A stretch of DNA of 64,000 nt, from positions 1-64,000 of the forward strand of contig JAHCKM010000006.1 of the NCBI GenBank assembly GCA_026125795.1, written 5' to 3'. The notes under the pieces were generated by a model that had not been told where the DNA came from, did not search any database, and saw only the letters and a list, made by a program, of their open reading frames with translations. Of the stretch, positions 1,040-35,380 are shown in pieces. The translations under genes were made by a program, and so were the position numbers. The stretch comes from Burkholderiaceae bacterium (GTDB taxonomy: Bacteria; Pseudomonadota; Gammaproteobacteria; Burkholderiales; Burkholderiaceae_C). Position 1 is the stretch's first letter; every line of letters begins with the position of its first letter.

Positions 1040-1070
1040 TCTGAACCGGCGGCGCCGCAGCGGCAACCCA
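1040..1070 (+). promoter_or_regulatory. Candidate ECF promoter, site 1 (alpha/beta hydrolase)
   Basis: The sequence reads TCTGAACCG, then 14 bases, then GCAACCCA. The same two boxes at the same spacing occur upstream of seven other units in this window. The element ends 32 bases before the ATG at 1103. Because it lies inside the longer open frame that begins at 1019, it also argues for the 1103 start. Confidence 0.65.
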
Positions 1071-1102
1071 CTGGCAATCCTGCCGCCAGCCTGCCGCAAA
1101 CC

Positions 1103-2092
1103 ATGACACCCGACATCGACCTCACCGCGCCCGAGCCGGGCTTCGCGCTGGTGTCCGACGTGGCCGGCGTGGCGCGGGTGCTGTGCAACCTGAGCGGCAT
1201 CGGGCTGATCGACAAGCTGGCGCCGCAACGCGCCGCCTCGCGCCGCATCCACCTGTCGCTGGCCAGCGGCGAAAGGATCATCGTGCAGGTCACCGGCAGC
1301 GGGCGGCCGGTGCTGATGATCCACGGGCTCGGCGGCAGCCACCACGACTGGGACGGCGCGCTCGAAAGCCTGGCACGCCAGCACAGCATCCACCGCTTCG
1401 ACCTGCCGGGCCACGGCGCGCGCGCCTCAGGCAAACGCCCGCCCACGCTGCAGCAGATGGCGCACGACGTGGCCGAGGTGATCGAGGGGCTGGCGCTGGA
1501 GCGTCCGCTGCTGGTGGGCCACTCCATGGGTGCGCTGGTGGTGATGAAGTACCTGCAGGACCACGGTGCGGGCTCGATCGCCGGCGTGTGCCTGATCGAC
1601 CAGTCGCCGCGCATCACCAACAACGACCAGTGGCAGCTCGGCCTGTTCGGCTCGCTGACGCAGAGCCAGCTCAAGGACGCGCTCGGCCGCCTGCGCGGCG
1701 ATTTTGTCGAGACCGTGGCCAGCGAGTTCATCGCCCGGCTGGCGCCGCTGAGGCAGGCGGGTTCGCGCACGGCGCTGGCCGGGCGGCTGGCGCGCTGGGC
1801 GGTGGCCCGCCTGGCGCGCAGCTGCGGCGTCGAGCATGTGCTGTCGATGCTCGAGAGCCTGGCCGAGGCCGACTTCCGCGATGTCATCGCCAGGGTCAAG
1901 GTGCCGACCATGGTGGTGCTGGGCGGCGCCAGCCACCACTATGGCGGCCTGCCGCTCGGCCAGTACTACCGCGACACGCTGCCCGACGGCACGGTGCGCA
2001 TGTACACCAAGGCCTCACATTCGCCGCACCGGTCGGAGCCCGGCCGATTCGCGGCCGACTTGGCAGCTTTCGCGGCCAAGCGCTGCGCGTGA
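1103..2092 (+). CDS. Alpha/beta hydrolase
   Basis: This is a 329-residue alpha/beta hydrolase with the oxyanion motif MIHGLGGSHHDW and the nucleophile elbow GHSMGA (Ser near residue 141). The C-terminal catalytic His probably lies in the KASHSPH segment. The N-terminal 60 residues precede the hydrolase core and resemble an added cap or leader without a hydrophobic segment. An open frame extends back to 1019, but the ATG at 1103 is preferred because the shared promoter element lies at 1040-1070. That element ties this gene to the regulon centred on the exporter locus, although the gene sits 4.5 kb from the ECF operon. The substrate is unknown; epoxide hydrolases, lipases and haloperoxidase-like enzymes share these motifs. 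Confidence 0.8.
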   Translation: MTPDIDLTAPEPGFALVSDVAGVARVLCNLSGIGLIDKLAPQRAASRRIHLSLASGERIIVQVTGSGRPVLMIHGLGGSHHDWDGALESLARQHSIHRFDLPGHGARASGKRPPTLQQMAHDVAEVIEGLALERPLLVGHSMGALVVMKYLQDHGAGSIAGVCLIDQSPRITNNDQWQLGLFGSLTQSQLKDALGRLRGDFVETVASEFIARLAPLRQAGSRTALAGRLARWAVARLARSCGVEHVLSMLESLAEADFRDVIARVKVPTMVVLGGASHHYGGLPLGQYYRDTLPDGTVRMYTKASHSPHRSEPGRFAADLAAFAAKRCA

Positions 2093-2123
2093 GTCGGCCC
2101 GCGCTGCGCGCCGAGCCCCAAGG

Positions 2124-2438
2124 TCACAACCGGTACAGCGAGATCAGCAGCGTGGTGGCACCGCACATCGCCGCGTTGGCGACGTTGACCATCACCGCGC
2201 GGTCGGCGCGCTGACCGTTGTGGAGATAGAGCCAGGCCGCCATCGTCGCGTTGGCGCCCAGCCAGGACAGCCAGGTCCACAGCGAATGCTGCGACGAGTC
2301 GGCCTGGTCGTGGATGGCCCACATCGTCGGCAGGTACGACAGCACGCGCACCGAGTTGAACAGCGTGAAGGCCCAGGTGAGCAACAGCATGGCGCCGCCG
2401 GGTCCGGTGCCGCGCATGGAGGCAGCCAGGTTGCGCAT
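2124..2438 (-). CDS. Small three-helix membrane protein
   Basis: This 104-residue protein has three predicted hydrophobic segments, roughly residues 15-37, 53-72 and 82-104, joined by short polar loops, and almost no soluble part. It is not recognised as a named family. Its ATG overlaps the stop of the upstream methyltransferase gene (TGATG, one shared base), so the two are almost certainly translationally coupled. The pairing suggests that the methyltransferase product, or the enzyme itself, works at the inner membrane, but that is inference. Confidence 0.7.
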   Translation of the reverse strand: MRNLAASMRGTGPGGAMLLLTWAFTLFNSVRVLSYLPTMWAIHDQADSSQHSLWTWLSWLGANATMAAWLYLHNGQRADRAVMVNVANAAMCGATTLLISLYRL

Positions 2439-3460
2439 CACGGGCCCACTGCGTGCAGCAGGCGAAACCCGCCGGCCTCGCCGATCTCGGGCTGCATCTC
2501 GAGGCCGGCTTCGGCGAACAGCGCCGCGAACTCGCGCGCGGTGCGTTCGCGGCCGCTCAACGCCACCAGCATGTTGAGGTCCGAGCGCGCCACCGCGCGG
2601 TCTTGCGACGTGGTGCCCACGCGGTCGGCCATCACGCGCTCGACCACCCACACCTGGCCGTGCGGCGCCATCGCGGCGCGGCAGCGCCGGAGGATCTGCA
2701 CACAACGCGCGTCGTCCCAGTTGTGCAGCACGCTCTTGAGCAGGTAGAGGTCGCCCGCCGGCAGGGCGTCGAAGAAGCTGCCGGCCACAAGGCAACAACG
2801 CGGCGTCACGCCGGCCGCTTCGAGCACCGCTGGGGCGCCTTCGAGACCGTGCGGGAGGTCGAGCAGCACGCCGTGCAACGTGGGGTGCGTTGCCAGCACC
2901 TGCGCGATCAGCTCGCCGCTGCCGCCGCCGACATCGACCACACGCTGCACGCCGGCCGGATCGATCGTGCGTGCCACCGCGCCGGCGACCGAACGCGTGA
3001 TGTCGACCATCGCGCGGTAGAACAGCGCGGCGGCCTCCGGGCTGTGTGCGAGGTCGTCGAAGCCGTCGGCGCCGCCGTGGCGGCGCCGATGGCTCAGGCC
3101 GCTGCGCACGCTCTGGTCGAGCTCGGCCCAACGTTGCCAGATCGTGCCGCCGGCCAGCAGCGCCCAAGCGCGCAGCGATTGCGCATGGTCTTCGCGCAGC
3201 AGTGCGCCGCTGGGCGTGAGCGTGTAGCGACCGCTCGCGTCCTGCGCACACAGTCCGAGCGCGATCAGCCCACGCAGCAGCCGTTGCAGCGAGGGCGCGT
3301 GGCAGCCGGTGGCCTCGGCCAGTGCGTCGGCGCTGACGGCGCCGGCAGCAAGCCGCTCCGGCACGCGCAGCACGCAGGCCGCACGGATCGCCTGCGTGCT
3401 CCAGCTCGCGTTGATCAGATCGAGCAGTTCCGCGTATGACGCGCCGGCGGCAGTTTCCAT
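2438..3460 (-). CDS. SAM-dependent O-methyltransferase (acetylserotonin/hydroxyneurosporene type)
   Basis: The 340-residue protein has the two-part layout of the plant-type and carotenoid O-methyltransferase family. An N-terminal winged-helix dimerisation domain (about residues 15-90) is followed by a Rossmann SAM-binding domain with the glycine motif VVDVGGGSGEL at 174-184. The segment LLKSVLHNWDD carries the expected catalytic base His246. Such enzymes methylate hydroxyl groups of small aromatic or carotenoid substrates; which one is unknown here. It overlaps the small membrane protein downstream by one base and lies just after the Bug-protein gene on the same strand. Confidence 0.85.
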   Translation of the reverse strand: METAAGASYAELLDLINASWSTQAIRAACVLRVPERLAAGAVSADALAEATGCHAPSLQRLLRGLIALGLCAQDASGRYTLTPSGALLREDHAQSLRAWALLAGGTIWQRWAELDQSVRSGLSHRRRHGGADGFDDLAHSPEAAALFYRAMVDITRSVAGAVARTIDPAGVQRVVDVGGGSGELIAQVLATHPTLHGVLLDLPHGLEGAPAVLEAAGVTPRCCLVAGSFFDALPAGDLYLLKSVLHNWDDARCVQILRRCRAAMAPHGQVWVVERVMADRVGTTSQDRAVARSDLNMLVALSGRERTAREFAALFAEAGLEMQPEIGEAGGFRLLHAVGP

Positions 3461-3469
3461 CGCGAGCCT

Positions 3470-5581: not shown

Positions 5582-6418
5582 TCAGCGCACGCTGCTGCAC
5601 GCCCCGCCGGCCACCGTGCGGAAGCAGAAGTCGCCGGTCAGGCTGGAGCTCTCCCACGGCACCTGCACGCGGCCGGTCTCCTTGGCAACCGCCAGGCGCA
5701 CGCGCTTGAACAGCAGTTCCACCGGCAGGCCCGGCGCGCTCATGTGCTCCAACAGGTGCTTGGTGTACAGGCTGTTCTTCTCTTCCGGGTTGTCCAGCGC
5801 CACGCCGCCGGGCGCGGTGGAAAACGCGATCATCGAGCCGAGCGGCGCCTCCACCGGCGCCAGACCGTTGGGCGTCATGCCGCGGAACTTCAGCCGCCGG
5901 CCGTCGGGCCCGACGATCACGGAGCCCGAGAACGGGTTGTTGCGGCAGGCGTCGAGGATCACGACGTTGATGCCCTGCTTGATGCCGCCGAGCCGGTCGA
6001 GAAACTCGTTCAGGTCGGCGCTCTTGTTCGGCATCTCGTCTTCGGCGCGGATCTCGGTGTCCACCGGCAGCAGGTAGTTGCGGCCGTTGAGCTGCACGCC
6101 GTGACCGGCGTAGTAGACGACGCGCACGTCGGCGCTCTTGCTTTGCATCGAGAACTGCTGGAACGCCTCGATCATCTCGCGCAGCGATGCATTCTCGCGG
6201 TGCGTCACCTCGAAGCCGAGGCCGCGCAGCGACGTGGCCACCGCCTTGGCATCGTTGACCGGGTTCTTCAGCGCACCGACCTTGTAGTTGGCGTTGCCGA
6301 TCACCAGCGCCACGCGCGAGCCGGCGGCGGCCCGGCTGGGTGTGGCGGTGGCGGCCAGCAGCGGGGCGACGGCCGCGAAGCCGAGCGCGGAGATGCAGCG
6401 GCGGCGTTGCGTATCCAT
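5582..6418 (-). CDS. Caspase-like (peptidase C14) protein co-transcribed with ECF sigma
   Basis: This 278-residue protein starts with a hydrophobic export-like segment preceded by Arg residues (about 1-30). A caspase-fold p20 domain with an intact dyad follows: His106 in VYYAGHGVQL and Cys158 in VILDACRNNPF. These are the catalytic residues of bacterial orthocaspases and metacaspases. It begins 14 bases after the anti-sigma gene stop with AAAGG ahead of the ATG at 6418, and is therefore the third gene of the sigma/anti-sigma operon. Known members cleave after Arg/Lys or Asp; specificity is not visible here. Its position suggests it may act on the anti-sigma or on envelope targets, which is inference. 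It converges on the LysR gene, with a short hairpin (GATCGG-CGA-CCGATC, 5564-5578) between them. Confidence 0.85.
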   Translation of the reverse strand: MDTQRRRCISALGFAAVAPLLAATATPSRAAAGSRVALVIGNANYKVGALKNPVNDAKAVATSLRGLGFEVTHRENASLREMIEAFQQFSMQSKSADVRVVYYAGHGVQLNGRNYLLPVDTEIRAEDEMPNKSADLNEFLDRLGGIKQGINVVILDACRNNPFSGSVIVGPDGRRLKFRGMTPNGLAPVEAPLGSMIAFSTAPGGVALDNPEEKNSLYTKHLLEHMSAPGLPVELLFKRVRLAVAKETGRVQVPWESSSLTGDFCFRTVAGGACSSVR

Positions 6419-6432: not shown

Positions 6433-7089
6433 TCAGCGGCGCTCGGGCAGCGCGTCGACGCGTGCGACGCCGTCGACGATCGGGCTCACCTTCACGGCGT
6501 CGGCGGCCGCGGCGATGCGTGCTTCGGGGATGCGCACATACCAGTCGCCCAGCTGGCCGGGGCCGCCGGCCAATGAGCCGTTGATCTCCACCAGCAGCAT
6601 GCGGATGTCGGCCTCCTTGGCGTCGGCCTTGAAGTTGACCTTGAGGAACGGACCCGGATCGACCACGGTGGGCTGGGTGGCACGGATCACGCTGCTTTCG
6701 TCTTCCCGGGTCGCGAGGTTGGCGATCACGATGCCTTGCACCACCACCACCGCGAGCGCGCCGGCCAACGCCGGCTTGAGCATCGGCTGCGGCGTGATCG
6801 ACGCGAAGAACTCGCGCAGGCGCTCGACGAACGAAGGCGCGGCCGGCTTGGCAGCGGCACGTGCGGGCGCGCGCTCGGCGCGGATGCGTGCCATCACCTT
6901 GTCGAGGCCGACTTCGGCCGACACCGCGGGCGCATCGCGCTGCATCGTCTCCTGCAGCGTGCGGTACCACTGCAGCTCGGCCGCCGACTTGGGGTGCTCG
7001 CGCAGGTAGGCATCGACCCAGTCGCGCTCGGCATCGTCGAGCGTCTCGTTCACGTAGAAGGGCAGCAGTTCGTCGAATCGGCTTTTCAT
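6433..7089 (-). CDS. Membrane-anchored anti-sigma factor (non-zinc type)
   Basis: This 218-residue protein has a cytosolic N-terminal helical domain (about 1-50, FDELLPFYVNETLDDAERDW) typical of anti-sigma domains. A Pro/Ala-rich linker follows, then one transmembrane segment at about 106-126 and a periplasmic domain of about 90 residues. There is no His-X3-Cys-X2-Cys zinc motif. It overlaps the sigma gene by four bases (ATGA), the standard sigma/anti-sigma arrangement. It should hold the ECF factor inactive until an envelope signal releases it. Confidence 0.82.
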   Translation of the reverse strand: MKSRFDELLPFYVNETLDDAERDWVDAYLREHPKSAAELQWYRTLQETMQRDAPAVSAEVGLDKVMARIRAERAPARAAAKPAAPSFVERLREFFASITPQPMLKPALAGALAVVVVQGIVIANLATREDESSVIRATQPTVVDPGPFLKVNFKADAKEADIRMLLVEINGSLAGGPGQLGDWYVRIPEARIAAAADAVKVSPIVDGVARVDALPERR

Positions 7090-7673
7090 GAGGTTTCTCC
7101 CAGCGGCTCCTCGCCCTCGCGGGCAAGCATGCGCTGCAGGCATTGCTTCAGTTTCTGTCGGGCATGGAACAGGCGCGTCTTCACCGTGCCCTCGGGGATC
7201 TGCTGGATGCGCGCCACGTCGGACACCGACATGCCCTGGTAGAACACCAGGTGCACACACTCGCGGTGATCGTGGCCGAGCTTGTCGACGCAGTGGCGCA
7301 CGCCGGCGCTGCGCTGCTGCTCGGCCATGACCTCGAACGCGCCCGGCGCGTCGCTCGGCAGCTCTTCGGCCAGTTCGGCCACGTCGTCGTGCTCGGCATC
7401 GGGCTTGCGGCTGCGCCAGTGCATCAGCACCTTGTTGCGCGCGATGCCGATCAGCCAGGTGGAGAACTGCGACTCGCCGCGAAACTTGGCGGGCGCCTTC
7501 CACACTTCATACAGGGTATCGGCCACGATTTCCTCGGCTTGCGCGGGGTCCGACAGCTGCCTCAGTGCGTAGGCGTAGAGCTTGCGCGAGAAGGCGCAAT
7601 AGAGCTCGCGGAACGCGCCTTCGTCCTGCTGTTGAATGCGGCCGAGCAGCCGCAGCACTTGGTTGTTGTCCAT
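7086..7673 (-). CDS. ECF-type RNA polymerase sigma factor
   Basis: This 195-residue protein has sigma region 2 (about 22-88, with FRELYCAFSRKLYAYALR and the core-binding segment AEEIVADTLYEVWK) and region 4 (about 130-180, with the helix-turn-helix MSVSDVARIQQIPEGTVKTR). There is no region 1 or 3, as in ECF sigma factors. The downstream overlapping membrane protein is its anti-sigma. Its target is not proven, but a conserved GAAC-N16-GCAAC element upstream of at least eight units in this window is a strong candidate. Its own upstream region has GAACCG at 7723-7728 but lacks a good second box at the right distance. Confidence 0.92.
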   Translation of the reverse strand: MDNNQVLRLLGRIQQQDEGAFRELYCAFSRKLYAYALRQLSDPAQAEEIVADTLYEVWKAPAKFRGESQFSTWLIGIARNKVLMHWRSRKPDAEHDDVAELAEELPSDAPGAFEVMAEQQRSAGVRHCVDKLGHDHRECVHLVFYQGMSVSDVARIQQIPEGTVKTRLFHARQKLKQCLQRMLAREGEEPLGETS

Positions 7674-7772: not shown

Positions 7773-8339
7773 TCATTCGCCGCGGAACTGCACGCGGCGG
7801 TTCTCGCCGGCCCTCGGGCTGCGGCCCGGCAGCGGGCTGGCTTCGCCCTTGCCCACGGCCTCGAGGCGGCCCGCGTCGATGCCGTGCATCGAGACCAGGT
7901 AGCTGCGCACCGAGAGCGCACGGCGCTGCGACAGCTGCGCGTTGTACTCGTCGGTGCCCACGGCGTCGGTGTGGCCTTCGATCACCACGCGTTGCGTGGC
8001 CGGGAGCATGCGGATGCCGGCGGCAATCGCATCGAGCTGCGGCTTGGCCGCCGGCAGGATGTCGGCCGAATCGAATGCGAACGGCACCGGCAGCGACAGC
8101 GCCGACGGGCCGGCCGCGGCGGCTGCGGTGACCGCGGCAGCGGCCGACGTGGCGGCCCCGGGGCCAGCGGGCGCATCGAGCAGGCGCAGCGAGCGCATCT
8201 TCACCGGGCCCAGGATGCGCGCCACTTCTTCCGGATCCACCGTGTCGGTGCCGCGGTAGACCTTGACCTCGCCGGCAAGGGCCGCGAGCGAGCAGACGCT
8301 GAGCAGCAAGGCGGCAATGGATGGCAGGCGGCGCGGCAT
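7773..8339 (-). CDS. OmpA-like peptidoglycan-binding outer-membrane protein
   Basis: This 188-residue protein has an N-terminal signal peptide (about 1-22), an Ala-rich linker, and a C-terminal OmpA domain (about 85-188) with the peptidoglycan-binding pattern EGHTDAVGTDEYNAQLSQRR. It lacks the beta-barrel of full OmpA and is a Pal-like or secretion-associated form. The ATG at 8339 has GGAGGA upstream. The shared promoter element lies at 8375-8404, so it is probably a member of the ECF regulon. Confidence 0.85.
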   Translation of the reverse strand: MPRRLPSIAALLLSVCSLAALAGEVKVYRGTDTVDPEEVARILGPVKMRSLRLLDAPAGPGAATSAAAAVTAAAAAGPSALSLPVPFAFDSADILPAAKPQLDAIAAGIRMLPATQRVVIEGHTDAVGTDEYNAQLSQRRALSVRSYLVSMHGIDAGRLEAVGKGEASPLPGRSPRAGENRRVQFRGE

Positions 8340-8374: not shown

Positions 8375-8404
8375 TGTGTTGCGGCAGGCGCCGGCTCGGT
8401 TCAA
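8375..8404 (-). promoter_or_regulatory. Candidate ECF promoter, site 2 (OmpA-like gene)
   Basis: On the minus strand the sequence is TTGAACCG, 14 bases, GCAACACA. It lies 35 bases upstream of the ATG at 8339, leaving room for a transcription start and a GGAGGA ribosome-binding site. Confidence 0.7.
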
Positions 8405-14568: not shown

Positions 14569-14579
14569 GGCCGGCTCCG

Positions 14580-18068: not shown

Positions 18069-18080
18069 ACCCGTGCGGCG

Positions 18081-20299: not shown

Positions 20300-20329
20300 T
20301 TGAACCGTTCGGCCGGCTCCGGCAACCCA
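20300..20329 (+). promoter_or_regulatory. Candidate ECF promoter, site 3 (TolC exporter operon)
   Basis: TTGAACCG, 14 bases, GCAACCCA. The element lies in the 169-bp gap after the caspase gene and about 100 bases before the tolC-like ATG, so it could drive the whole TolC-FHA-HlyD-isomerase-ABC operon. Confidence 0.72.
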
Positions 20330-24396: not shown

Positions 24397-24415
24397 CAGC
24401 GAGCCAGAGGGCCAC

Positions 24416-25789: not shown

Positions 25790-25828
25790 GAGACGTTCGA
25801 GGTTCGAAAGCAGCAAGGAGCAACCGAG

Positions 25829-26581
25829 ATGAACCCCCTCGTGAAGATCGACGGCCAGGTGATCGACGTGGCCGATTTCCTGCGCACGCTGAAGCTCAGC
25901 GGCCAGTTCGACGGGCTGCTCGACCAGCTGGTGCGCGACCGCCTCACCGTGCAGGCCGCGAAGAAGGCGGGCATCCGCGTCTCCGAGGCCGAGATCCAGG
26001 AGCGCGCCGACCAGTTTCGTCGTGCACGCGGCCTGCACCGCGCCTCCGACACCAACAAGTACCTCGATGCGCTGCGCGTCAGCCTGGACGAGTTCGAGAC
26101 CTTCATCGCCGACAGCCTCTACCAGGAGCGGATGCTGCAGCAGGTGTGCAGCGAGCAGGCCGTGGCGTCGTACTTCAAGCTCAACTCGCCCAAGTTCGAC
26201 AGCATCGAAGTCAGCCATATGGTGCTCGACTCCGAGGGCAAGGCCAAGGAGATGGTCTCGGTGTTGAGCGATGACCCCGACAGCTTCGAGGAGATGGCGC
26301 GCGAGCACTCGATCGCGCCCACCCGCGAGGCCGGTGGGCGCCTCGGCAAGGTGATGCGCGGCTCGCTGCGCACCGAGATCGAGGCCAAGGTGTTCAACGC
26401 CGCGGTGGGCGAAGTGCTGGGGCCGTTCGCGTCGAACGACCGTTCGGTGTTCGAGCTGTTCCGCGTTGACGCGCGCCATCCGGCGCAGCTCGACGACGCC
26501 ACGCGCACCGAGGTGCAGCGCGTGCTGCGCGAGGGCTGGCTGCGCGCACGGGCCCAGGAACACCTGATCGAAGCCTGCTGA
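25829..26581 (+). CDS. Parvulin-type (PpiC/SurA-like) peptidyl-prolyl isomerase without signal peptide
   Basis: The protein has 250 residues. An N-terminal helical SurA-like region (about 1-120) is followed by a parvulin domain (about 125-225, with SIEVSHMVLD, FEEMAREHSIAP and GGRLGKVMRGSL). Most relatives of this shape are exported, but no signal peptide or membrane helix is seen, so it is expected in the cytoplasm. AAGGAG lies eight bases ahead of the ATG. Lying between the adaptor and the ABC exporter, it probably handles the substrate before export. Confidence 0.85.
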   Translation: MNPLVKIDGQVIDVADFLRTLKLSGQFDGLLDQLVRDRLTVQAAKKAGIRVSEAEIQERADQFRRARGLHRASDTNKYLDALRVSLDEFETFIADSLYQERMLQQVCSEQAVASYFKLNSPKFDSIEVSHMVLDSEGKAKEMVSVLSDDPDSFEEMAREHSIAPTREAGGRLGKVMRGSLRTEIEAKVFNAAVGEVLGPFASNDRSVFELFRVDARHPAQLDDATRTEVQRVLREGWLRARAQEHLIEAC

Positions 26582-26603
26582 AGCCGGCTACGCGAAAAGT
26601 CGC

Positions 26604-29600
26604 ATGGACACGCAAGAACTGAAGTCGCGCGCCGACTTTCTGGCCACGGTCGATCTGCTGTCGGCGCTGACGCGCAAGGACATCGATCGCCTGGCTCAAG
26701 CCGCGCAGTCGCGCTGGCTGGCCTTTGGCGACACCGCGTGCAAGGCCGGCGACGTGTCCGAGGGCCTGTTTGTCATCAAGTCCGGGACGGTGCGCATCTT
26801 CGCCGAGGAGGGCGGCAAGGAAGTCAGCCAGGGCGTGCGCAAGGCCGGCGACGTGTTTGGCGAGATGGTGGTGCTGCGCGAGCACCGGCACGAGGTGTCG
26901 GCGCGCGCCTCGGCGAAGACCGAGCTGCTGATGATTCCGCGCGCCGTGGTGGCGCCGATCATCGCCGGCAACCCGGCGGCGCGCGCGTTCGTCGCCAGTC
27001 GCGTGGCCATCGGCTCGGCCGGCGGCATGATCAGCCAGCTGTTCGACCTGCGCGGCAAGGTCGACAAGGATGAGCTCGACGAGCTGATCCGCAGCGTCGG
27101 CGTCAAGCAGGTCGAAGCGGGCAAGGAGATCGTCAAGCAGGGTTCGCGCGACGACCGCCGTCTGTACGTGGTGCGCCACGGCGAGGCGCGCATCGTGCGC
27201 CACGAGGAAGGCAACGACTACCCGCTGGCCACGCTGCGCCAGGGCGACACCTTCGGCGAGAAGGCCTGCCTGATGCGCCAGGAACACGAAGCGTCGGTGA
27301 TCGCGCACACCGACACCGCGCTGCTGGTGATCCCCGAGAAGACGGTGGTCTTCATCCTGGAGCGCAATCCCAAGCTGCGCGACGCGCTGGCCGAGCGCGT
27401 GCGTTCGCTCGATCGCGAGCTGGAGCGCCAGAAGCGCATGGCCGAGCGGCGCAAGCTGCCGGTGCTGCTCGACCTGAAGTCCAAGCCGGAGCTGGGCGAG
27501 CGTGTGCTCAAGCGCTTTGCGTGGATCCAGCAGGCCGAGCAGATGGACTGCGGCGCCGCCTGCCTGGCGATGATCTGCAAGCACTACGGCATCAACATGA
27601 CGCTGGGCAAGCTGCGCGAGCTGGCCAACGTCACCACCACCGGCGCCACGCTGGAGAGTCTGGCGCGCACCGGCGAATCGCTCGGCTTCACCACGCGCGG
27701 CGTGCAGTGCACGTTCGACTCGCTGCGCGGCTTCGACCTGCCGTTCATCGTGCACTGGGAGGGCTACCACTACGTTGTGGTGTATGGCGTGTCGGCCAAG
27801 CACGTGTGGCTGGCCGACCCGGCCACCGGCTTCAGGAAGCTGGGCATCGAGGACTTCGAGCGCGGCTGGAGCGGTACCTGCCTCACCTTCACGCCGCGCG
27901 TCAACCTGGCCCAGGAGGAGGCCTCGCGCTCGCCGTGGGTGCGCTTCGCGCGCTACCTGATCCCCCACCGCAAGGTGCTGCTGCACCTGTTCCTGGCCAC
28001 GTTCGTGATCCAGGTGCTGGGCATCGTGCCGCCGATGATCATCCAGAACATCCTCGACGGCGTGATCGTGCACCAGAACGTGAGCCTGCTGCACCTGCTG
28101 ATCGCCGGGCTGATCATCTCGAGCCTGTTCACGCAGCTGATGGCCACCATTCGCGCCGCGCTGTCGAACTTCATGGTGCGCAAGCTCGACTTCACCATGA
28201 TGTCGCAGTTCCTGCGCCACACGCTGTCGCTGCCGTACTCGTTCTTCGCCAAGCGCCAGACCGGCGACATCTTCGCGCGCTTCCAGGAGAACCAGACCAT
28301 CCGCGCGTTCCTCACCGAGTCGACCGTCACCACAGTGCTGAACCTGCTGATGGTGTTCATCTATTTCTCGGTGATGTTCCTCTACAACGTGAAGCTCACG
28401 TTGCTGCTGATCGCGTTCGTCATCCCGATCCTCGCGCTGACCGTGCTGGTGACGCCCAAGATCAAGGTGTATGCGCGCGACGTGTTCAGCTCCTCCACCG
28501 AGGCCAAGTCGTACCTGATGGAGTCGCTCGGCGGCGCCGAGACCGTGAAAGGCATGGGCATCGAGCGGCCCGTGCGGCTGAAATGGGAGCAGAAGTACGC
28601 CAAGTCGCTCGAGGTGCAATATCGCGCGCAGTCATTCAACATCTGGGTCGGCCTGGCCGGGCAACTGCTCAACTCGGCCACGACCATCGCGATCCTGTGG
28701 GCCGGCGCCAATCTGGTCCTGGCACGCGAACTGACCATCGGGCAGCTGATCGCGTTCAACGCGCTGATGGGCAGCGTGCTCGCGCCGCTGATGGGGTTGG
28801 TGGGCTTGTGGAGCCGGCTCAACGACGCGGCGGTCGCCATGGAGCGCCTTGGCGACGTGCTCGACCTGGACCCCGAGCAGAAGCCCGAGGACCTCGCCAA
28901 CCGCGTCGCGCTGCCCGATCTGCGCGGCGAGATCAAGTTCGACGGCGTGTACTTCCGCTACGGCGGCAATGAAACATCGTATGTGCTGGAGAACATCAAC
29001 CTCGACATCAAGCCCGGCGAGCTGGTGGCCATCGTCGGCCGCAGCGGCTCGGGCAAGACCACGCTGGCCAAGCTGCTGGTGGGCTTCTACACGCCCACCG
29101 AAGGCAAGCTGATGGTCGACGGCTACGACATCAACGTGATCGACAAGGAGTACTACCGCGCTCAGGTGGGATACGTGATGCAGACCAATCTGCTGTTCTC
29201 CGGCACCATCGCCGAGAACATCGCATGCGGCGACGAGACCCCGGATCGGCGCCGCATCGAAGAAGTGGCGCGGCGCGCCGACGCGCACGGCTTCATCAGC
29301 AAGCTGCCGCGCGGCTACGAGCAGACGGTGGGCGAGCGCGGCACAGGCCTTTCCGGCGGGCAGATCCAGCGCTTGTGCATTGCGCGCGCTCTGTACCACG
29401 ATCCGAAGCTGCTGGTGTTCGACGAGGCGACCTCGGCGCTGGACACGCAGTCCGAAAGCAACATCATGGCCAGCATGGATGACATCCTGGCCGGCCGCAC
29501 GGCGGTGATCATCGCGCACCGCCTGAGCACCATCATGCGGGCCGACAAGATTCTGGTGCTCTACGAGGGCAAGGTGGTCGAGCAGGGCCGGCACGACGAG

Positions 29601-29663
29601 CTGGTGGAGCGCCGCGGCATGTACTACGAGCTGGTGCAGAAGCAGTTGAGCGCGGCGGCCTGA
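26604..29663 (+). CDS. ABC exporter with two cyclic-nucleotide-binding domains and C39 peptidase
   Basis: This 1019-residue protein combines four parts. Two cNMP-binding domains (about 14-115 and 148-255) come first. A C39 double-glycine peptidase domain (about 305-430) follows, with its triad present: Cys316 in MDCGAACLAMI, His389 in EGYHYVVV and Asp405 in LADPATGF. Then come six transmembrane helices (about 455-740) and a nucleotide-binding domain with GRSGSGKTT (about 812-820), LSGGQIQR (about 914) and DEATSALD. C39 exporters cut leaders after GG and pump the mature peptide out. The cNMP-binding N-terminus is known from NHLM-type bacteriocin exporters, usually without both parts together. 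Its likely substrates are the GG peptides encoded 1.3-2.1 kb downstream. Confidence 0.93.
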   Translation: MDTQELKSRADFLATVDLLSALTRKDIDRLAQAAQSRWLAFGDTACKAGDVSEGLFVIKSGTVRIFAEEGGKEVSQGVRKAGDVFGEMVVLREHRHEVSARASAKTELLMIPRAVVAPIIAGNPAARAFVASRVAIGSAGGMISQLFDLRGKVDKDELDELIRSVGVKQVEAGKEIVKQGSRDDRRLYVVRHGEARIVRHEEGNDYPLATLRQGDTFGEKACLMRQEHEASVIAHTDTALLVIPEKTVVFILERNPKLRDALAERVRSLDRELERQKRMAERRKLPVLLDLKSKPELGERVLKRFAWIQQAEQMDCGAACLAMICKHYGINMTLGKLRELANVTTTGATLESLARTGESLGFTTRGVQCTFDSLRGFDLPFIVHWEGYHYVVVYGVSAKHVWLADPATGFRKLGIEDFERGWSGTCLTFTPRVNLAQEEASRSPWVRFARYLIPHRKVLLHLFLATFVIQVLGIVPPMIIQNILDGVIVHQNVSLLHLLIAGLIISSLFTQLMATIRAALSNFMVRKLDFTMMSQFLRHTLSLPYSFFAKRQTGDIFARFQENQTIRAFLTESTVTTVLNLLMVFIYFSVMFLYNVKLTLLLIAFVIPILALTVLVTPKIKVYARDVFSSSTEAKSYLMESLGGAETVKGMGIERPVRLKWEQKYAKSLEVQYRAQSFNIWVGLAGQLLNSATTIAILWAGANLVLARELTIGQLIAFNALMGSVLAPLMGLVGLWSRLNDAAVAMERLGDVLDLDPEQKPEDLANRVALPDLRGEIKFDGVYFRYGGNETSYVLENINLDIKPGELVAIVGRSGSGKTTLAKLLVGFYTPTEGKLMVDGYDINVIDKEYYRAQVGYVMQTNLLFSGTIAENIACGDETPDRRRIEEVARRADAHGFISKLPRGYEQTVGERGTGLSGGQIQRLCIARALYHDPKLLVFDEATSALDTQSESNIMASMDDILAGRTAVIIAHRLSTIMRADKILVLYEGKVVEQGRHDELVERRGMYYELVQKQLSAAA

Positions 29664-29702: not shown

Positions 29703-30512
29703 TTAGTCGGACTGCAGAACCGGATGCAGCACCGTGCGATCCGGGCTGCTCAGGTCGTCGGCGCGCACCACCACCGCGGTGATGTTGTCGTGGCCGCCGC
29801 GCTCGAGCGCCAGATCGACCAGCGCCTCGACGGCGAGGCTGCAGGCTCCGGGCAGCAGCGAGTCTACGATCGCAGACTCGCTCACCTCGTTGGTCAGGCC
29901 GTCGCTGCAAAGCAGGAAGATGTCGCCGTCCATCACGTCGGCGCCCACCGCGTCGAGCTCCAGCTCGTCATGGCCGCCGAGCGCGCGGGTGATCACGTTG
30001 GCCGGCGGACGGTCGAGCGTGATGTCGCCCGAGCCCACGTGCATGGCGCGCACCGCCTCGAGCTGGCTGTGGTCGCGCGTGAGCTGGTGCAGCCGGCCGC
30101 CCCGCAGCAGGTAGACGCGGCTGTCGCCGGCCCACACGCAGGCGAAGCGCGACCCGGCCACCAGCAGCGCGGCGATCGTGGTGCCGATCACGGGCACATC
30201 GCGCCGTTCGGCCTCGGCGCGCAGCCGGCGGTTGGCGTCCAGCAGCCGCTTCTCGGCCAGCGTGGCGCGCTCGTCGAGCGAGCCCTCGGGCGGTAGATCC
30301 ATCAGGCAACGGATCGCCAAGCGGCTGGCGAACTCGCCCAGCGAGTGGCCGCCCATGCCGTCGGCCACGGCCCACATGCCGCACTTGGGTTGTTCGAGGC
30401 AGGCATCCTCGTTGACCTCGCGCACCCGGCCGGGGTGCGAGCGCGAGGCCGATGTCCAGTGGAACGCGCGCGCTTCGCGCGCGTCCAGGCGTCCAAGCTC
30501 GTCGGCCTTCAT
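29703..30512 (-). CDS. pppA: PP2C-type Ser/Thr phosphatase (PppA-like)
   Basis: This 269-residue PP2C phosphatase has all metal-binding motifs: NEDACLE, ADGMGGH, WAGDSRVYLLR, CSDGLTNEV and GGHDNITAVVV. It is soluble. In type VI systems PppA removes the phosphate that PpkA adds to an FHA protein. Here it should oppose one or both Ser/Thr kinases of the locus. It lies downstream of the three small peptide genes on the same strand with a 47-base gap after peptide C. The start at 30512 has no strong Shine-Dalgarno; in-frame upstream starts would overlap peptide C. Confidence 0.9.
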   Translation of the reverse strand: MKADELGRLDAREARAFHWTSASRSHPGRVREVNEDACLEQPKCGMWAVADGMGGHSLGEFASRLAIRCLMDLPPEGSLDERATLAEKRLLDANRRLRAEAERRDVPVIGTTIAALLVAGSRFACVWAGDSRVYLLRGGRLHQLTRDHSQLEAVRAMHVGSGDITLDRPPANVITRALGGHDELELDAVGADVMDGDIFLLCSDGLTNEVSESAIVDSLLPGACSLAVEALVDLALERGGHDNITAVVVRADDLSSPDRTVLHPVLQSD

Positions 30513-30559: not shown

Positions 30560-30832
30560 TCAGCTGTTGAGCGAGTTGATCACCACGGCGGTCACCGGCG
30601 AGTTGTCGCCGGCATCGACATCGATGTTCGTGACCTGATTGACCATCTTGTCGATGAACGTGAAGTTGTTCGTCTCGTAGTAGTTCAACACCATCGGCAT
30701 GGCGGGCGTCGCGACGATCGGGGCCCTGAAGCCGTGGACCCACGGCGCGCCGGCGGCACCGCGCAACGACGTCATTGCGTGGACATCGAGCGCTCGGCTG
30801 ACAGGGAGGTCGGTGATGGTGATCGAAGCCAT
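30560..30832 (-). CDS. Candidate exported peptide C (GA-type leader)
   Basis: This 90-residue protein has no cysteine. Its first 25 residues (ITITDLPVSRALDVHAMTSL) form an amphipathic leader followed by RGAAGAPW, which resembles a C39 leader with GA instead of GG at the cut site. The rest is rich in Asn, Thr, Val and Asp, ending QVTNIDVDAGDNSPVTAVV, reminiscent in composition of peptides A and B. It lies between peptide A and the phosphatase, downstream of a terminator-like hairpin, and lacks the shared promoter element. It is probably another substrate of the exporter, but the cut site is unproven. An alternative is a regulatory or immunity protein. Confidence 0.6.
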   Translation of the reverse strand: MASITITDLPVSRALDVHAMTSLRGAAGAPWVHGFRAPIVATPAMPMVLNYYETNNFTFIDKMVNQVTNIDVDAGDNSPVTAVVINSLNS

Positions 30833-30965: not shown

Positions 30966-31229
30966 TTACTTGACCAGCTGAGCGATGTTGGCCAGCGAGC
31001 CCACCAGGTTGTTGGTGACGGTGTTGGTGTCGATGTCGACCTTGACGTCGTTGTCGAGCTGCGTCACGGTGTTGGTCGAGCCAACAGCGATCACCGGGCT
31101 GGCGAAGGCGAAGCCGCCGCCGACCGCCGCCGTGGGGGCGTTGATCGCGCTCAGGTTGTCGCCACCGGACACGGCACCTTGCTCTTCAGCGCTCATTTCA
31201 CGGGCCAGGTCGAGGTCTTTGATCTGCAT
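30966..31229 (-). CDS. Double-glycine peptide A (precursor)
   Basis: This is an 87-residue precursor. The 23-residue leader has the C39 pattern (IKDLDLAREMSAEEQGAV, then SGG at 21-23). The predicted mature peptide of 64 residues has no Cys, Trp or Tyr and is rich in Asn, Thr, Val, Ala and Asp (DNLSAINAPTAA at its start). It is 57/64 identical to mature peptide B. AGGAG lies six bases before the ATG. It has its own candidate ECF promoter (31298-31327) and terminator (30863-30908). The C39 exporter nearby should process and export it. Function is unknown: a bacteriocin, a signal or a surface-assembling peptide are all open. Confidence 0.82.
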   Translation of the reverse strand: MQIKDLDLAREMSAEEQGAVSGGDNLSAINAPTAAVGGGFAFASPVIAVGSTNTVTQLDNDVKVDIDTNTVTNNLVGSLANIAQLVK

Positions 31230-31297: not shown

Positions 31298-31327
31298 TGA
31301 GTTGCACCCGCCGCGACAGCGGTTCAA
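31298..31327 (-). promoter_or_regulatory. Candidate ECF promoter, site 4 (peptide A)
   Basis: Minus strand: TTGAACCG, 14 bases, GCAACTCA. It ends 68 bases before the ATG at 31229, close to the spacing seen for peptide B. Confidence 0.72.
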
Positions 31328-31400
31328 AGAAACTGATGCGAATCCCGCGGGGCTGAAGTACACCGTCGCATGCCCGGATCGGCGGCCGGCTCGCGCAAAC

Positions 31401-31450
31401 CAAGAAAAAAGCCGCGCCGGCATGGACGGCCATGCTCCGGTGCGGCCTTG
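31401..31450 (-). terminator. Rho-independent terminator after peptide B gene
   Basis: On the minus strand the stem AAGGCCGCACCGG pairs with CCGGCGCGGCTTT (one A-C mismatch and one G-T pair), followed by a run of T residues (forward A run 31405-31410). It shares a 19-base identical stretch with the terminator after peptide A, so the gene and terminator were duplicated together. Confidence 0.75.
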
Positions 31451-31504
31451 CTCTGCAATCGACCGAGGCACGCCCGCTAAGGCGCACCGCGGCGGGCGGC
31501 GAGC

Positions 31505-31774
31505 TTACTTGACCTTCTGTCCGATGTTGGCCAGCGAACCCACCAGGTTGTTGGTGATGGTGTTCGTGTCCAGGTCGACCTTCACGTCGTTGTCGAGCTG
31601 CGTCACGGTGTTCGTCGAGCCCACGGCGACGGTCGGGCTGGCGAAGGCAAAGCCGCCAGCAACGGCAGCCGTGGGGGCGTTGATCGCGCTCAGGTTGTCG
31701 CCACCGGTCACGGCGGCTTTCTCTTCATCGGTCAGTTCACGGTTTTGGTCGAGGTCTTTGATCTTCATGTTCAT
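31505..31774 (-). CDS. Double-glycine peptide B (precursor)
   Basis: This is an 89-residue precursor. The leader of 25 residues (IKDLDQNRELTDEEKAAV, then TGG) carries the C39 cut site. The mature 64-residue part differs from peptide A at seven positions, mostly conservative. The leaders differ more than the mature parts, the reverse of what is usual when a leader is under selection for one exporter, and this suggests selection on the mature peptide. AGGAG precedes the ATG; a second ATG two codons later (MKIKDL) is an alternative start. It has its own candidate promoter (31846-31875) and terminator (31401-31450). Confidence 0.82.
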   Translation of the reverse strand: MNMKIKDLDQNRELTDEEKAAVTGGDNLSAINAPTAAVAGGFAFASPTVAVGSTNTVTQLDNDVKVDLDTNTITNNLVGSLANIGQKVK

Positions 31775-31845: not shown

Positions 31846-31875
31846 TCGGTTGCGCCAGCACTGCAGAGCGTTCGG
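31846..31875 (-). promoter_or_regulatory. Candidate ECF promoter, site 5 (peptide B, variant)
   Basis: Minus strand: CCGAACGC, 14 bases, GCAACCGA. The GAAC core and GCAAC box keep the exact spacing, but the flanks differ from the other sites. The second box overlaps a small hairpin with a GAAA loop (CAACC-GAAA-GGTTG, 31839-31852). Confidence 0.55.
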
Positions 31876-31941: not shown

Positions 31942-31954
31942 GCCATGGCCGACT

Positions 31955-33823
31955 TCAGTCGACCAGCACGTGCAGGCTGGCCTGTGCCGTGTCGCCAGCC
32001 AGGCCGGCGAAGGCACTCTTGAGCTCCTGCAGCGAGCCCACCGCAAGCGGCTCGAGGTCGGTGCCGGTCACCGCGGGCGGCAACTCGGCCATCACGTCGC
32101 GCGAGCTCGCGAAGCAGGCGATCGTCTCCGGCACCTTCAGGCTGTTGGCCACCAGCTCGAAGCGCATCTTGCCGGGGATCTCCAACGCGGTGCCGGCCTT
32201 CACCAGCGCACTCTTGCGGAAGCGGTTGGGATAGAAGCGCAGGATGCGCTGCGCCTCGTCCTGCAGATAGCAGTAGACGTGCGAGTCGTCGCTTGGCTTG
32301 ACCAGCAGGCGGATGCGCTCGCCGGCGCGGAACGTCTGCACGGCGTCGGCCGAGCCGGCGGCTGCAGCGCCCTTGCCGGCCGCTCCGAGGCGCACGATGT
32401 CCAGCGTGCGCAACTTAGGGGGGTCGACGGCCGGAGGCGGGCTCGGCGGCAGCGCGGTCGGGGCCGGCTCCGGCAGCGCCAGCGCGATGCTCGAACCTGC
32501 CGCGGCCGGTTGTGCAGCCGCGGCTCCAGGCTCTGCCGCCGCAGCGGGTTGCGCCTCTGGTGGCGCAGTGGCCACCGGCGGACTGACCGGGGTCTGGGCC
32601 AGCGTCGGCGGCGTGGTCTTGGCGCTGGACGCCAGTCCGGAGGGCGAGCGGTACGACCACAGCAGCGCCGCGCCGGCGCCGAGCGCCAGCACGACCAGCG
32701 AAAGTGCCGTCATCGCGACCCAACGGGGGATCGCACCGCGCGTGGGCACGGCTGCGCGCTGGGCCCCCGGGCCTGCCGGCATCTGCTTGACACCCTGCAA
32801 GACCGGATTGATCGCCGTGCGCGAGGTCGTCCCCGCATCGAGAGGCCGTTCCTGGGTGCGCGCCGGTGCAGGAGCCACCTGAGCCAGGCAGGCATCGATC
32901 GCGCGCGCGAAGTCGCGCACGGTCTGAAAGCGCGCCGACGGATCCTTCTCCAGCGCCTTCATCACCGCCGCCTCCACCTTGGGCGGCACGCCGGCGACCT
33001 GATCGCGCAGCGGCGGCGGTGCCTGCTCGAGCTGCGCCTTCATCAGCTCCACGTCGTTGGGATCATCGAACGGAGCGCGGCCGGCCAGCAGCGTGTACAG
33101 CACGATGCCCAGCGAGTAGATGTCGGAGCGCACGTCGGCCTTCTTGCCGCGGATCTGCTCGGGCGACATCGCCTTGGCGGTACCGGCCACATGGCCGATG
33201 CGCGTCAGCTGCTCCTGGCTGTCCATCGCGCGCGCGATGCCGAAGTCCATCACCTTCACCTGGCCGCTGTCGGCCAGCATGATGTTGGCCGGCTTGATGT
33301 CGCGGTGCACGATGCCATGGTTGTGCGCGTGCTCCACGCCGTCGAGCACGCGGCGGAAGATGGTGAGCGCGCGCTCCGGCGGCACCGGGCCTCCCGAGCG
33401 CACGAACTCGTCGAGCGCGATGCCCGGCACGTACTCCATCACCAGCAGCTGCTTGTCGCCCTCCTGCATGAAGGCGTGCACGCTGGCCACGTTGGGATGG
33501 CTGAGCTTGGCCTGCAGCTGCGCCTCGTTGCGAAAGCGCGCCAGGAACACCGGGTCGGAGGCCAGCTCGTCGCGCAGCACCTTGATCGCCACGTCGCGTT
33601 TGAGCATCGTGTCGACGGCCTTGTAGACCTGGCCGACTCCACCGGCGCCGATGCGCTTGGTGATGGTGTAGGCACCGATGCGGGCGCCCACCGGGTCGCC
33701 GGTCTCCGCCCTGACGACGGTGGATTCCTGCTCCGTGCCGCGCGTGCCGGTTTGTTCGGCCGGCTCGCGGCTGCCTTGCCCACCCCCGGCGAGAATGCGC
33801 GTCGTCCAATTGGCCAAGCTCAT
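31955..33823 (-). CDS. Membrane Ser/Thr protein kinase with C-terminal DUF4384 domain
   Basis: This 622-residue protein has a Hanks-type kinase domain (about 50-315) with IGAGGVGQVY, Lys81, HRDIKPAN at 173-180 and DFG at 193-195. A linker, one transmembrane helix (about 372-395), a Pro/Ala-rich periplasmic spacer (about 405-490) and a C-terminal beta domain of the DUF4384 kind (about 505-590, HVYCYLQDEAQRILRFYPN) follow. It could sense an envelope signal and phosphorylate cytosolic FHA proteins. The ATG at 33823 is chosen over one at 33838 because AGGAG lies directly upstream of it. A candidate ECF promoter is at 33876-33905. Confidence 0.9.
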   Translation of the reverse strand: MSLANWTTRILAGGGQGSREPAEQTGTRGTEQESTVVRAETGDPVGARIGAYTITKRIGAGGVGQVYKAVDTMLKRDVAIKVLRDELASDPVFLARFRNEAQLQAKLSHPNVASVHAFMQEGDKQLLVMEYVPGIALDEFVRSGGPVPPERALTIFRRVLDGVEHAHNHGIVHRDIKPANIMLADSGQVKVMDFGIARAMDSQEQLTRIGHVAGTAKAMSPEQIRGKKADVRSDIYSLGIVLYTLLAGRAPFDDPNDVELMKAQLEQAPPPLRDQVAGVPPKVEAAVMKALEKDPSARFQTVRDFARAIDACLAQVAPAPARTQERPLDAGTTSRTAINPVLQGVKQMPAGPGAQRAAVPTRGAIPRWVAMTALSLVVLALGAGAALLWSYRSPSGLASSAKTTPPTLAQTPVSPPVATAPPEAQPAAAAEPGAAAAQPAAAGSSIALALPEPAPTALPPSPPPAVDPPKLRTLDIVRLGAAGKGAAAAGSADAVQTFRAGERIRLLVKPSDDSHVYCYLQDEAQRILRFYPNRFRKSALVKAGTALEIPGKMRFELVANSLKVPETIACFASSRDVMAELPPAVTGTDLEPLAVGSLQELKSAFAGLAGDTAQASLHVLVD

Positions 33824-33875: not shown

Positions 33876-33905
33876 TGGGTTGCCGCCAGCGACGACGCGG
33901 TTCAT
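33876..33905 (-). promoter_or_regulatory. Candidate ECF promoter, site 6 (kinase 2)
   Basis: Minus strand: ATGAACCG, 14 bases, GCAACCCA, ending 52 bases before the kinase ATG at 33823. Confidence 0.7.
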
Positions 33906-34009
33906 CCGCGCCGCACACCTCACGGCTGTTTTGCAGGGTCTTTGTAGCTCAGGTCGCCGCCGGCCACCAGCGGTCTCTCGTCGGGGCGCGATGCGGTGCG
34001 CCGGCGATC

Positions 34010-34402
34010 TCAGGGCTCGATGGTCGGCAGGCGCGGCGCGCCGCCGTCGAGCGGCATCGTGAAACGCAGCTCGACGCGAGCCTCGCCGGTGGCGCGCGAC
34101 GTGCTGAAGCCGAGCCACCACGCGCCGCGTTGGGTGGGCATCACCGCCAGCGGCAACAGGCGCGGTGCGCCGCTGCCGGAGCGCTGCCGCACCGCATGCC
34201 ACATCTGCGGCATGGTGAGCAGCTGCCACGCGCCGATGCGCATCGGATCGTCCCCCTGCGCCGCCGGCGTCGCCGCGGGCCGCTGCGGCTCCAGGTCGCC
34301 GGCGAAGGCCGGCGTCCACAGCGCCATCAGCAGCCAGGTTGCGGCCAGCGGCCACCACCAGGGCAGGCGGGTCGGTGTGGTGCGTGCAGTGGGGGCGAAC
34401 AT
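34010..34402 (-). CDS. Small secreted protein of unknown function
   Basis: This 130-residue protein has a signal peptide (about 1-34: WWWPLAATWLLMALWTPAFA) and an exported domain of about 95 residues with several Trp and no Cys. The exported part contains GAWQLLTMPQMWHAVRQRSG and ends in Pro-rich sequence. GGGAG precedes the ATG. It is the third gene of a short run with the two small membrane proteins upstream, and lies between them and kinase 2. No family is recognised. Confidence 0.65.
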   Translation of the reverse strand: MFAPTARTTPTRLPWWWPLAATWLLMALWTPAFAGDLEPQRPAATPAAQGDDPMRIGAWQLLTMPQMWHAVRQRSGSGAPRLLPLAVMPTQRGAWWLGFSTSRATGEARVELRFTMPLDGGAPRLPTIEP

Positions 34403-34419
34403 CGTGGGCTCCCTTGCGG

Positions 34420-34809
34420 TCAGGGCTGCGGTGGCATCTCGGCACCGGCCATGCTGCGGATCACGCAGGTGGCGTTGCTGTGGGTCTCGGCCACATACAC
34501 CGGCCGCCCCTCGCTGTCGCTGCCGCTGCGTTCGAGCGGAAAGCGCGTGCGGTCGGCCGGCAATTCGCCGAGGTTCTGTTCGAGCATCAGGTGGCCGTGT
34601 TGCCAGCAGCGCATTTGGTAGTTGTACGAGCCGTCCACCCCGCTTTGATAGGCCCCGGTCCGAGGGCCATCCCGCGATTCGGGGCCCGACAAGTCGGTAG
34701 CCGGCAACGCCGGCACGAGGAGCAACACCACCATCGCAATGGCCGCGGTGGTGGCAGGCGAGTCGAGCGCGCAGTCCAGCGCGCGCTCCAGGTCAACGGC
34801 CTTGAACAC
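34420..34809 (-). CDS. Small membrane-anchored protein with two periplasmic cysteines
   Basis: This 129-residue protein starts at a GTG that overlaps the upstream gene by 17 bases. It has one transmembrane segment (about 18-40) and a C-terminal part of about 85 residues, expected in the periplasm, with two Cys (MRCWQHGHLML and NATCVIRSM) that could form a disulphide. GGAG lies upstream of the GTG. It is followed by the secreted 130-residue protein. Family not recognised. Confidence 0.6.
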   Translation of the reverse strand: MFKAVDLERALDCALDSPATTAAIAMVVLLLVPALPATDLSGPESRDGPRTGAYQSGVDGSYNYQMRCWQHGHLMLEQNLGELPADRTRFPLERSGSDSEGRPVYVAETHSNATCVIRSMAGAEMPPQP

Positions 34810-34951
34810 GCCAGGTCTCCAGCGCCAAGCTGGTGCTGCTGGCGTCCATGACCAGCCGCGACGCGTCGACAGGGGTCATCTGCGCCAGCGCGACATAGGC
34901 GACGATGGTCAAGACCAGAGTCGACATCGTGATGAGGGTCGGACGGTTCAT
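34793..34951 (-). CDS. Very small single-pass membrane protein
   Basis: This 52-residue protein has one hydrophobic helix (about 5-26, LITMSTLVLTIVAYVALAQM). The ATG at 34951 is preceded by AGGAG at five bases. It is first in a three-gene run, overlapping the next gene, and has a candidate ECF promoter just upstream (35005-35034). Confidence 0.55.
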   Translation of the reverse strand: MNRPTLITMSTLVLTIVAYVALAQMTPVDASRLVMDASSTSLALETWRVQGR

Positions 34952-35004
34952 GGAGGCTCCTGGCGGCACGGACGGGAGCAAACGGCGCTCCCATCTCTGA
35001 ACGC

Positions 35005-35034
35005 TCAGTTGCGCCGGGGACGAGGACGGTTCAA
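35005..35034 (-). promoter_or_regulatory. Candidate ECF promoter, site 7 (small membrane-protein run)
   Basis: Minus strand: TTGAACCG, 14 bases, GCAACTGA, ending 53 bases before the ATG at 34951. Confidence 0.7.
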
Positions 35035-35126
35035 ACGGGTGCAGTGCCCGGCGCTGCGCAAGGTGCAGGAGCGTGCGGGGCCGGCGGCGCCGTCGCGCAC
35101 CCGCCAGGGGGCCGCCGGGCGGCCGC

Positions 35127-35315
35127 TTATTCGGCGTCGTGCGGCAGGCGCGGCGAGGAGGCCGCGTTCGGGCTGTGGCTGGCCGAGGCCACTCGCTCGG
35201 TCTTGGGCGGCGCCGGGTGGTCGATGGTCAGCGGCAGGAAGCCCGCCAGGATGAACGGCACCGGGATCAGCCAGATCAGCGGCGAGACCTTCTCATCGGG
35301 CCGATGCTTCGACAT
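35127..35315 (-). CDS. Small single-pass membrane protein
   Basis: This 62-residue protein has a short cytosolic start (MSKHRPDEKVSP), one hydrophobic helix (about 13-31) and a polar tail. AGGAGG lies five bases before the ATG and a candidate ECF promoter lies 35 bases upstream (35351-35380), which together make this short gene credible. No family is recognised. Confidence 0.6.
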   Translation of the reverse strand: MSKHRPDEKVSPLIWLIPVPFILAGFLPLTIDHPAPPKTERVASASHSPNAASSPRLPHDAE

Positions 35316-35350
35316 GACAGCCTCCTGTGACGACGCCCTTCTGTTGCCCG

Positions 35351-35380
35351 TGGGTTGCGACGCCAGCCGCAGCGGTTCAA
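35351..35380 (-). promoter_or_regulatory. Candidate ECF promoter, site 8 (62-residue membrane protein)
   Basis: Minus strand: TTGAACCG, 14 bases, GCAACCCA, with AGGAGG and the ATG at 35315 following within 36 bases, a near-ideal promoter-to-start layout. Confidence 0.72.

Follow-up and report, generated by a model that had tools for sequence, protein, structure and literature searches.

Known Systems and the Locus

Three described systems come closest to the one treated here, which consists of a promoter-like element, TGAACCG-N14-GCAAC, and an extracytoplasmic function (ECF) sigma factor encoded in a 64,000-nt stretch of DNA from a Burkholderiaceae bacterium (assembly GCA_026125795.1, contig JAHCKM010000006.1, positions 1–64,000; hereafter the window). 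The hrp box of HrpL in Pseudomonas, Erwinia, and Dickeya is given, in the excerpt of the source, as GGAACC/T-N15/16-C/T/GCACNNA (PMC8809351), and the excerpt of another source reports no evidence for an anti-sigma factor of HrpL (PMC5263251). BtrS and BtrA of Bordetella are described in part of a further source as an ECF factor and an anti-sigma factor controlling type III secretion, BtrA being secreted and the locus including partner switchers (PMC7498569). EcfK/PknS of Xanthomonas citri (ECF43) combines an ECF factor with nearby Ser/Thr kinases and secretion genes (excerpts of PMC8999054 and PMC13147305), and ECF43 factors such as EcfK are, in the excerpt, usually without a paired anti-sigma factor (PMC8999054).

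The window factor resembles HrpL in being an ECF factor, in promoter architecture and spacing, and in the T3SS (type III secretion system) operons of its relatives' predicted regulon; likened by promoter pattern and predicted regulon, it may work as an HrpL-type secretion regulator. It differs in three respects. The element, written as TGAACC-N16-CAACNCA, departs from the consensus at two bases (the first base and the second −10 base) and is not counted as a hrp box; the predicted main target in the window's species is a type I exporter; and the factor adjoins a probable membrane anti-sigma gene, for which reason it is not filed as HrpL-type. With BtrS/BtrA it shares a probable ECF/anti-sigma pairing and a predicted tie to type III secretion, whereas its probable anti-sigma protein carries a predicted transmembrane (TM) helix and is encoded beside the sigma gene. 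A link to BtrS via the literature was dropped, no promoter motif being obtained from the excerpt (PMC7498569). Ser/Thr kinases and secretion genes in the vicinity recall EcfK/PknS, but a probable anti-sigma gene lies beside the sigma gene in all 16 genomes that carry an ortholog of the factor (sigma-positive genomes below). Titles and abstract beginnings in PubMed Central (PMC), as far as they were covered, describe neither the promoter nor the sigma factor.

The Element and the Sigma Operon

Judged by its sequence pattern and spacing, by where it lies, by its conservation, and by its joint occurrence with the sigma and anti-sigma genes, it is highly probable that the element is the promoter of the dedicated ECF factor at 7086–7673 and drives a dispersed secretion regulon. 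In the proposed mechanism TTGAACC would act as the −35 box and GCAACnCA as the −10 box, held apart by a fixed spacer. The genes for the sigma factor, the one-TM anti-sigma factor, an OmpA-domain protein, and a caspase-fold protein would form one operon transcribed by its own sigma factor, and an envelope signal would free the factor from the anti-sigma protein to bind its promoters, set their start sites, and switch on the regulon. Its targets in the window's species would be a C39/HlyD/TolC type I exporter, GG-leader peptides as the presumed exported substrates, a Ser/Thr kinase and a phosphatase, and small membrane proteins; the type III secretion operons of related genera would be under the same promoter.

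The element precedes the sigma operon in 17/17 operons examined (those of the 16 sigma-positive genomes and of Rhizobacter), and the factor therefore very likely transcribes its own operon. The sigma gene is found in other genera, in Rhizobacter sp. Root1221 and Methylibium rhizosphaerae C1-9, with the element before both operons. A motif-free search for gapped word pairs (5+5), run on 250-nt segments cut around the already located sites, returned TGAAC-N16-GCAAC in 17/17; in 10 mononucleotide-shuffled sets the best word was shared by 3 sequences each time. Fifteen of these operons have GCAACnCA as the −10 box, and two (G171, G254) have GCAACTGA. Position scores are highest for TTGAACC, GCAACnCA, and an upstream A/T tract, and spacer positions hold 0.0–0.6 bits. 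A further exact copy lies just behind the M. rhizosphaerae sigma operon (L195 12116 and L246 12703), with no same-strand called start within 3 kb.

The window factor has regions 2 and 4 only, as ECF (group 4) factors do, and a promoter with an AAC-type −35 and fixed spacing stands before its operon in 17/17 cases. An acidic AEE stretch, seen by eye at the expected place, is a further point of difference from ECF43/EcfK. The product of the adjacent gene at 6433–7089 matches an NCBIfam anti-sigma model at E 3.4e-9, with 37 bits and thus below the cut-off of 100, and has no match in Pfam; its structure model is of low confidence (mean predicted local distance difference test score 64) and has no PDB match at E<=0.001. 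This gene had been overlooked in the sequence-only reading of the window, as had copies of the element outside the window and the type III targets of relatives.

Matches, Spacing, and Background

The sequence-only reading had placed eight sites of the form TGAACCG-N14-GCAAC at 32–105 bases from gene starts. All eight are present, displaced by 1–2 bases; seven are exact and the one at 31849 is CGAACGC-N14-GCAAC. Remeasured gaps to start codons are 35–106 nt at all eight, the start codons being approximate because the genes were called with a simple codon-bias script, not a standard gene finder. No site has a base in a called gene: called coding sequence takes up 92.2% of bases 1–36000, and all eight lie in the remaining ~8%. 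Position 29 is A in 8/8. A TGAACG variant, as at 31849, is found also at peptide genes of G002, G003, and G005 (G000 being the window's own genome, of 6.57 Mb and 70% G+C, and G000–G005 the six genomes of its genus).

Genome-wide the exact form occurs 15 times and its reversed control 6 times; of the 15 matches, 7 fall within the window. From the rate elsewhere 0.08 exact matches are expected in the window (P ~3e-12, indicative only, as the window was chosen by the reader). Within the window, 12 matches to GAAC with a loosened spacer face 2.4 expected, and allowing <=3 mismatches gives a small excess of 99 against 72; neither count was reached in any of 100 shuffles. The 29-base form ending in NCA has 10 exact matches in the genome and the control 1; in the genus there are 36 (10, 2, 10, 3, 6, and 5 in G000–G005) and again 1 in the control. 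Among 54 other relatives searched, two have one extended exact match each, one of them inside a gene. Spacing is strict: TGAACC-N16-CAAC occurs nine times in the window, all other spacings of 8–26 together twice. Two of the nine copies (10177, 59715) lie inside called genes and do not belong to the eight sites. A spacing tally over 46 fetched loci (81 N16 vs 11 for all others) was left unused, being biased by the choice of loci.

Of the eight exact matches outside the window five stand before genes, L001–L004 before small proteins and L008 190 nt from an exopolysaccharide enzyme gene (by eye). L007 is within a gene, L005 at a gene end before an apparent tRNA (by eye), and L006 is unclear.

In favor of a chance or compositional product of a 70% G+C genome, the relaxed motif is at background: the genome-wide search with <=2–3 mismatches was dropped, as at <=2 mismatches 64 matches face 65 in the control, and information therefore resides only in the strict matches. 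The exact forms do exceed their controls, the eight sites are all intergenic, and orthologs of the regulon's sites are present in G002, G003, and G005, three further species of the genus, with diverged spacers and hardly changed boxes, which makes such an artefact scarcely credible. The site of the OmpA-sigma operon is orthologous in G005 and G002 and has one changed base in G003, and sites at GG-peptide genes recur in G002, G003, and G005.

Co-occurrence across the Family

Sigma orthologs (E<=1e-85) were found in 16 of the 399 genomes that make up the family sample, the next-best match being at E 6.7e-69. At least two exact copies of TGAACC-N15-GCAACNCA are present in 16/16 sigma-positive and 8/383 sigma-negative genomes (p 5e-23; p-values are overstated, because related genomes are not independent samples), and at least three copies in 13/16 and 1/383, respectively. 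In the same 16 of the 399 an anti-sigma match (E<1e-50) adjoins the sigma gene, truncated in G146 where the contig stops; another 18 genomes have weaker matches. The proposal that the factor at 7086–7673 controls the sites is thus supported from two sides, by the element before every sigma operon and by sigma presence predicting copies across the family, and control itself would remain a prediction.

Six weaker sigma matches were omitted from the sigma-positive count (best E 6.7e-69; G400, G072, G141, G143, the second copy of G298, and G227). G051, with 49% identity, was rejected as an additional ortholog, its sigma gene having no promoter copy before it and a different setting. In G307, sister of the sigma-positive G146, no sigma match accompanies the two copies present, of which one is intragenic and the other lies 16 nt before a seemingly unlinked gene.

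Predicted Targets in Related Genera

For the 12 sigma-positive genomes of other genera, all the exact copies listed were inspected, 51 copies in 38 stretches. None is in a called gene; a start follows within 110 nt in 41 and at 116–309 nt in nine, and within 3 kb no start follows the remaining one. At many start codons the element is as little as 10–40 nt away, too close for another promoter to fit between. This bears on the possibility that the element binds an activator, such as a response regulator, and that ordinary sigma70 promoters lie downstream of it. Response regulator-like genes (by eye) do lie near some sites (L092, L179), but the half sites are unlike each other, non-palindromic, and set at one fixed spacing, and the element co-occurs with a sigma gene; an activator site is very unlikely. 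In L251, L265, and L272 the called ATG of an SctR-type gene is 10 nt after GCAAC, so that either the mRNA is leaderless or the start was miscalled.

Copies with an exact 13-letter core stand before SctV-type, SctU, and SctR operons in G196, G273, and G340, and an SctV-type operon of G161 stands behind a one-mismatch copy. SctV, SctU, and SctR of G273 score above the NCBIfam cut-offs; T3SS genes of the other genomes are named by likeness. In G095 exact copies precede an hcp gene, whose product is above the Pfam and just under the NCBIfam cut-off, and a kinase-like gene (by eye). A T3SS secretin (E<=1e-60) is present in 9/16 sigma-positive and 49/383 sigma-negative genomes, and among these 58 secretin-bearing genomes at least two copies of the element are found in 9/9 and 1/49, respectively. 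A 12.7-kb T3SS stretch of the sigma-negative G417 (L294) holds no intact GAAC-N17-CAAC with <=2 further mismatches.

These distributions suggest, as the somewhat favored interpretation, that an autoregulated sigma/anti-sigma pair with a hrp-box-like promoter is a control unit common to several genera, in which the circuit is conserved and the secretion machine exchanged: several genera would have type III secretion attached to it, the window's genus the C39 type I peptide exporter, and G095 an Hcp gene. The element would provide a testable promoter code for the secretion regulon in Sphaerotilaceae-type Burkholderiales, would assign orphan small proteins, as well as GG-leader peptides, to secretion machines, and would allow the turnover of the regulon (type III vs type I export) to be traced across species under one conserved sigma factor.

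Genomes without a Detected Sigma Ortholog

Several observations weigh against assigning the element to the window factor. In the window's own genus, G004 has eight copies of the element and G001 two, at T3SS genes and at small genes common with G000 (L092, L093, L101, L181, L182), and no sigma ortholog was found in either: the search returned nothing at E<=1e-10 in G004 and one 31% paralog in G001. Both genomes are also without an anti-sigma match (E<=1e-8) and without a C39-cNMP exporter ortholog. Furthermore, some other ECF factors are common to G000, G001, and G004, two copies with one mismatch are intragenic (L264, L272), the site at 31849 is weak, 7/16 sigma-positive genomes including G000 have no T3SS secretin at E<=1e-60, and the co-occurrence statistics treat related genomes as independent. 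The drafts of G004 and G001 are 85% and 68% complete, so that the absence of the sigma gene from them is not proven; either these assemblies have missed the sigma operon, or the element is read by a different factor in the two genomes.

Reading by another genus-wide ECF factor, alone or together with the window factor, would account for these conserved targets, and the shared ECF factors also speak for it. One ECF factor (L131/L132) turned up, among those fetched, in G001 and G004 alone. In G004 the 3′ end of an ECF gene of an ECF42-like type (L094) carries an exact copy, which is followed by a small gene. However, 16 stretches around sigma-type genes (nine of G004 and seven of G001, some of them short, searched only for intact GAAC-N17-CAAC) have almost no copies, the exceptions being L094 (the exact copy and one with two mismatches) and L176 (two mismatches, intragenic). 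Family-wide, moreover, copies of the element go with the window factor, and the operon of that factor has one in all 17 cases; a different reader is unlikely. The factor beside L001, likewise ECF42-like and present in G000, G002, G003, G004, and G005, is an unlikely reader because in the two genomes inspected the site is located at the 3′ end of its gene or past it.

Predicted Targets in the Window

With the window factor as the probable reader, the eight sites (Table 1) would bring exporter, substrates, and kinase under one regulator, as the sequence-only reading had it, and the exporter operon, the GG-leader peptides A and B, and kinase 2 do fall into one predicted regulon. The operon of kinase 1, TssL, TssM, TagF, and caspase genes (from 9890) does not, having no standard site in the window. 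A near-miss at 9682 (TGAACC-N17-CAAC, before a FecR-like gene) was rejected as its site and is absent in G005 and G002. A sigma70-like promoter, TTGACA..TAGATT, is seen by eye before this operon in G000, G005, and G002; in G196, G273, and G298 the ortholog of its first gene has the element, 167–172 nt away. Expression of the sensor/kinase module may thus not depend on the sigma factor in the window's species, whereas exporter, peptides, and kinase 2 would follow that factor.

Table 1. Promoter-like sites, sigma operon genes, and predicted targets.
Feature	Position	Strand	Basis or remark
Promoter-like site, alpha/beta hydrolase	1042..1070	+	exact TGAACCG-N14-GCAACCCA; orthologous site in G002
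Promoter-like site, OmpA-sigma-anti-sigma-caspase operon	8375..8403 (pattern match 8378)	-	exact; 17/17 sigma operons with matching site
Promoter-like site, exporter operon (TolC-FHA-HlyD-PpiC-C39 ABC)	20301..20329	+	exact; orthologous in G005, G002
Promoter-like site, peptide A unit	31298..31326 (pattern match 31301)	-	exact; sites at relatives' GG-peptide genes too
Promoter-like site, peptide B	31846..31874 (pattern match 31849)	-	CGAACGC variant; weakest of eight
Promoter-like site, kinase 2	33876..33904 (pattern match 33879)	-	exact; orthologous in G002, G003
Promoter-like site, small membrane-protein unit	35005..35033 (pattern match 35008)	-	core exact; ends in GCAACTGA
Promoter-like site, small membrane protein	35351..35379 (pattern match 35354)	-	exact; orthologous in G005
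ECF sigma factor	7086..7673	-	Pfam Sigma70_r2 + r4_2; TIGR02937 above cut-off
Probable membrane anti-sigma factor	6433..7089	-	4-base overlap with sigma gene; one predicted TM helix 103-128
OmpA-domain envelope protein, sigma operon gene 1	7773..8339	-	Pfam OmpA
Caspase-fold (C14) protein, probably exported, sigma operon end	5582..6418	-	Pfam Peptidase_C14; N-terminal hydrophobic stretch
Alpha/beta hydrolase, predicted target	1103..2092	+	Pfam Abhydrolase_6
TolC, FHA, HlyD, PpiC, C39-peptidase ABC exporter genes	20433..29663	+	Pfam; one probable operon by spacing and strand
Presumed GG-leader peptide A	30966..31229	-	leader ends VSGG
Presumed GG-leader peptide B	31505..31774	-	leader ends VTGG
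Third small peptide, perhaps peptide A unit	30560..30832	-	gene call only
PP2C phosphatase, perhaps peptide A unit	29703..30512	-	Pfam PP2C
Ser/Thr kinase 2 with DUF4384	31955..33823	-	Pfam
Three small genes behind site 35005	34010..34951	-	gene calls
Small protein, one predicted TM helix	35127..35315	-	gene call, TM prediction
~70-aa family members	L179 13174-13377, L138, L101, L182, L248, L250, L252, L270, L277		

A hairpin-like stretch with a T run, seen by eye at 31400–31500, follows peptide B, and peptides A and B are therefore probably separate transcription units. At 13270–18695 the type VI secretion genes TssL, TssM, and TagF adjoin the type I exporter.

Two groups of small proteins recur behind the element in other genomes. 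A family of ~70 amino acids (LFDEGRxxAFPCD...; Table 1) is found in several sigma-positive genomes and in G001 and G004; the sole member scanned (L258:7453–7662) is without a Pfam match. Secreted-looking small proteins with Q/N/S-rich repeats recalling curlin stand behind copies ending in GCAACTGA (L195 5680–6036, L258 13803–14171, L270), and the one scanned, from L258, has only a weak match to DUF6520.

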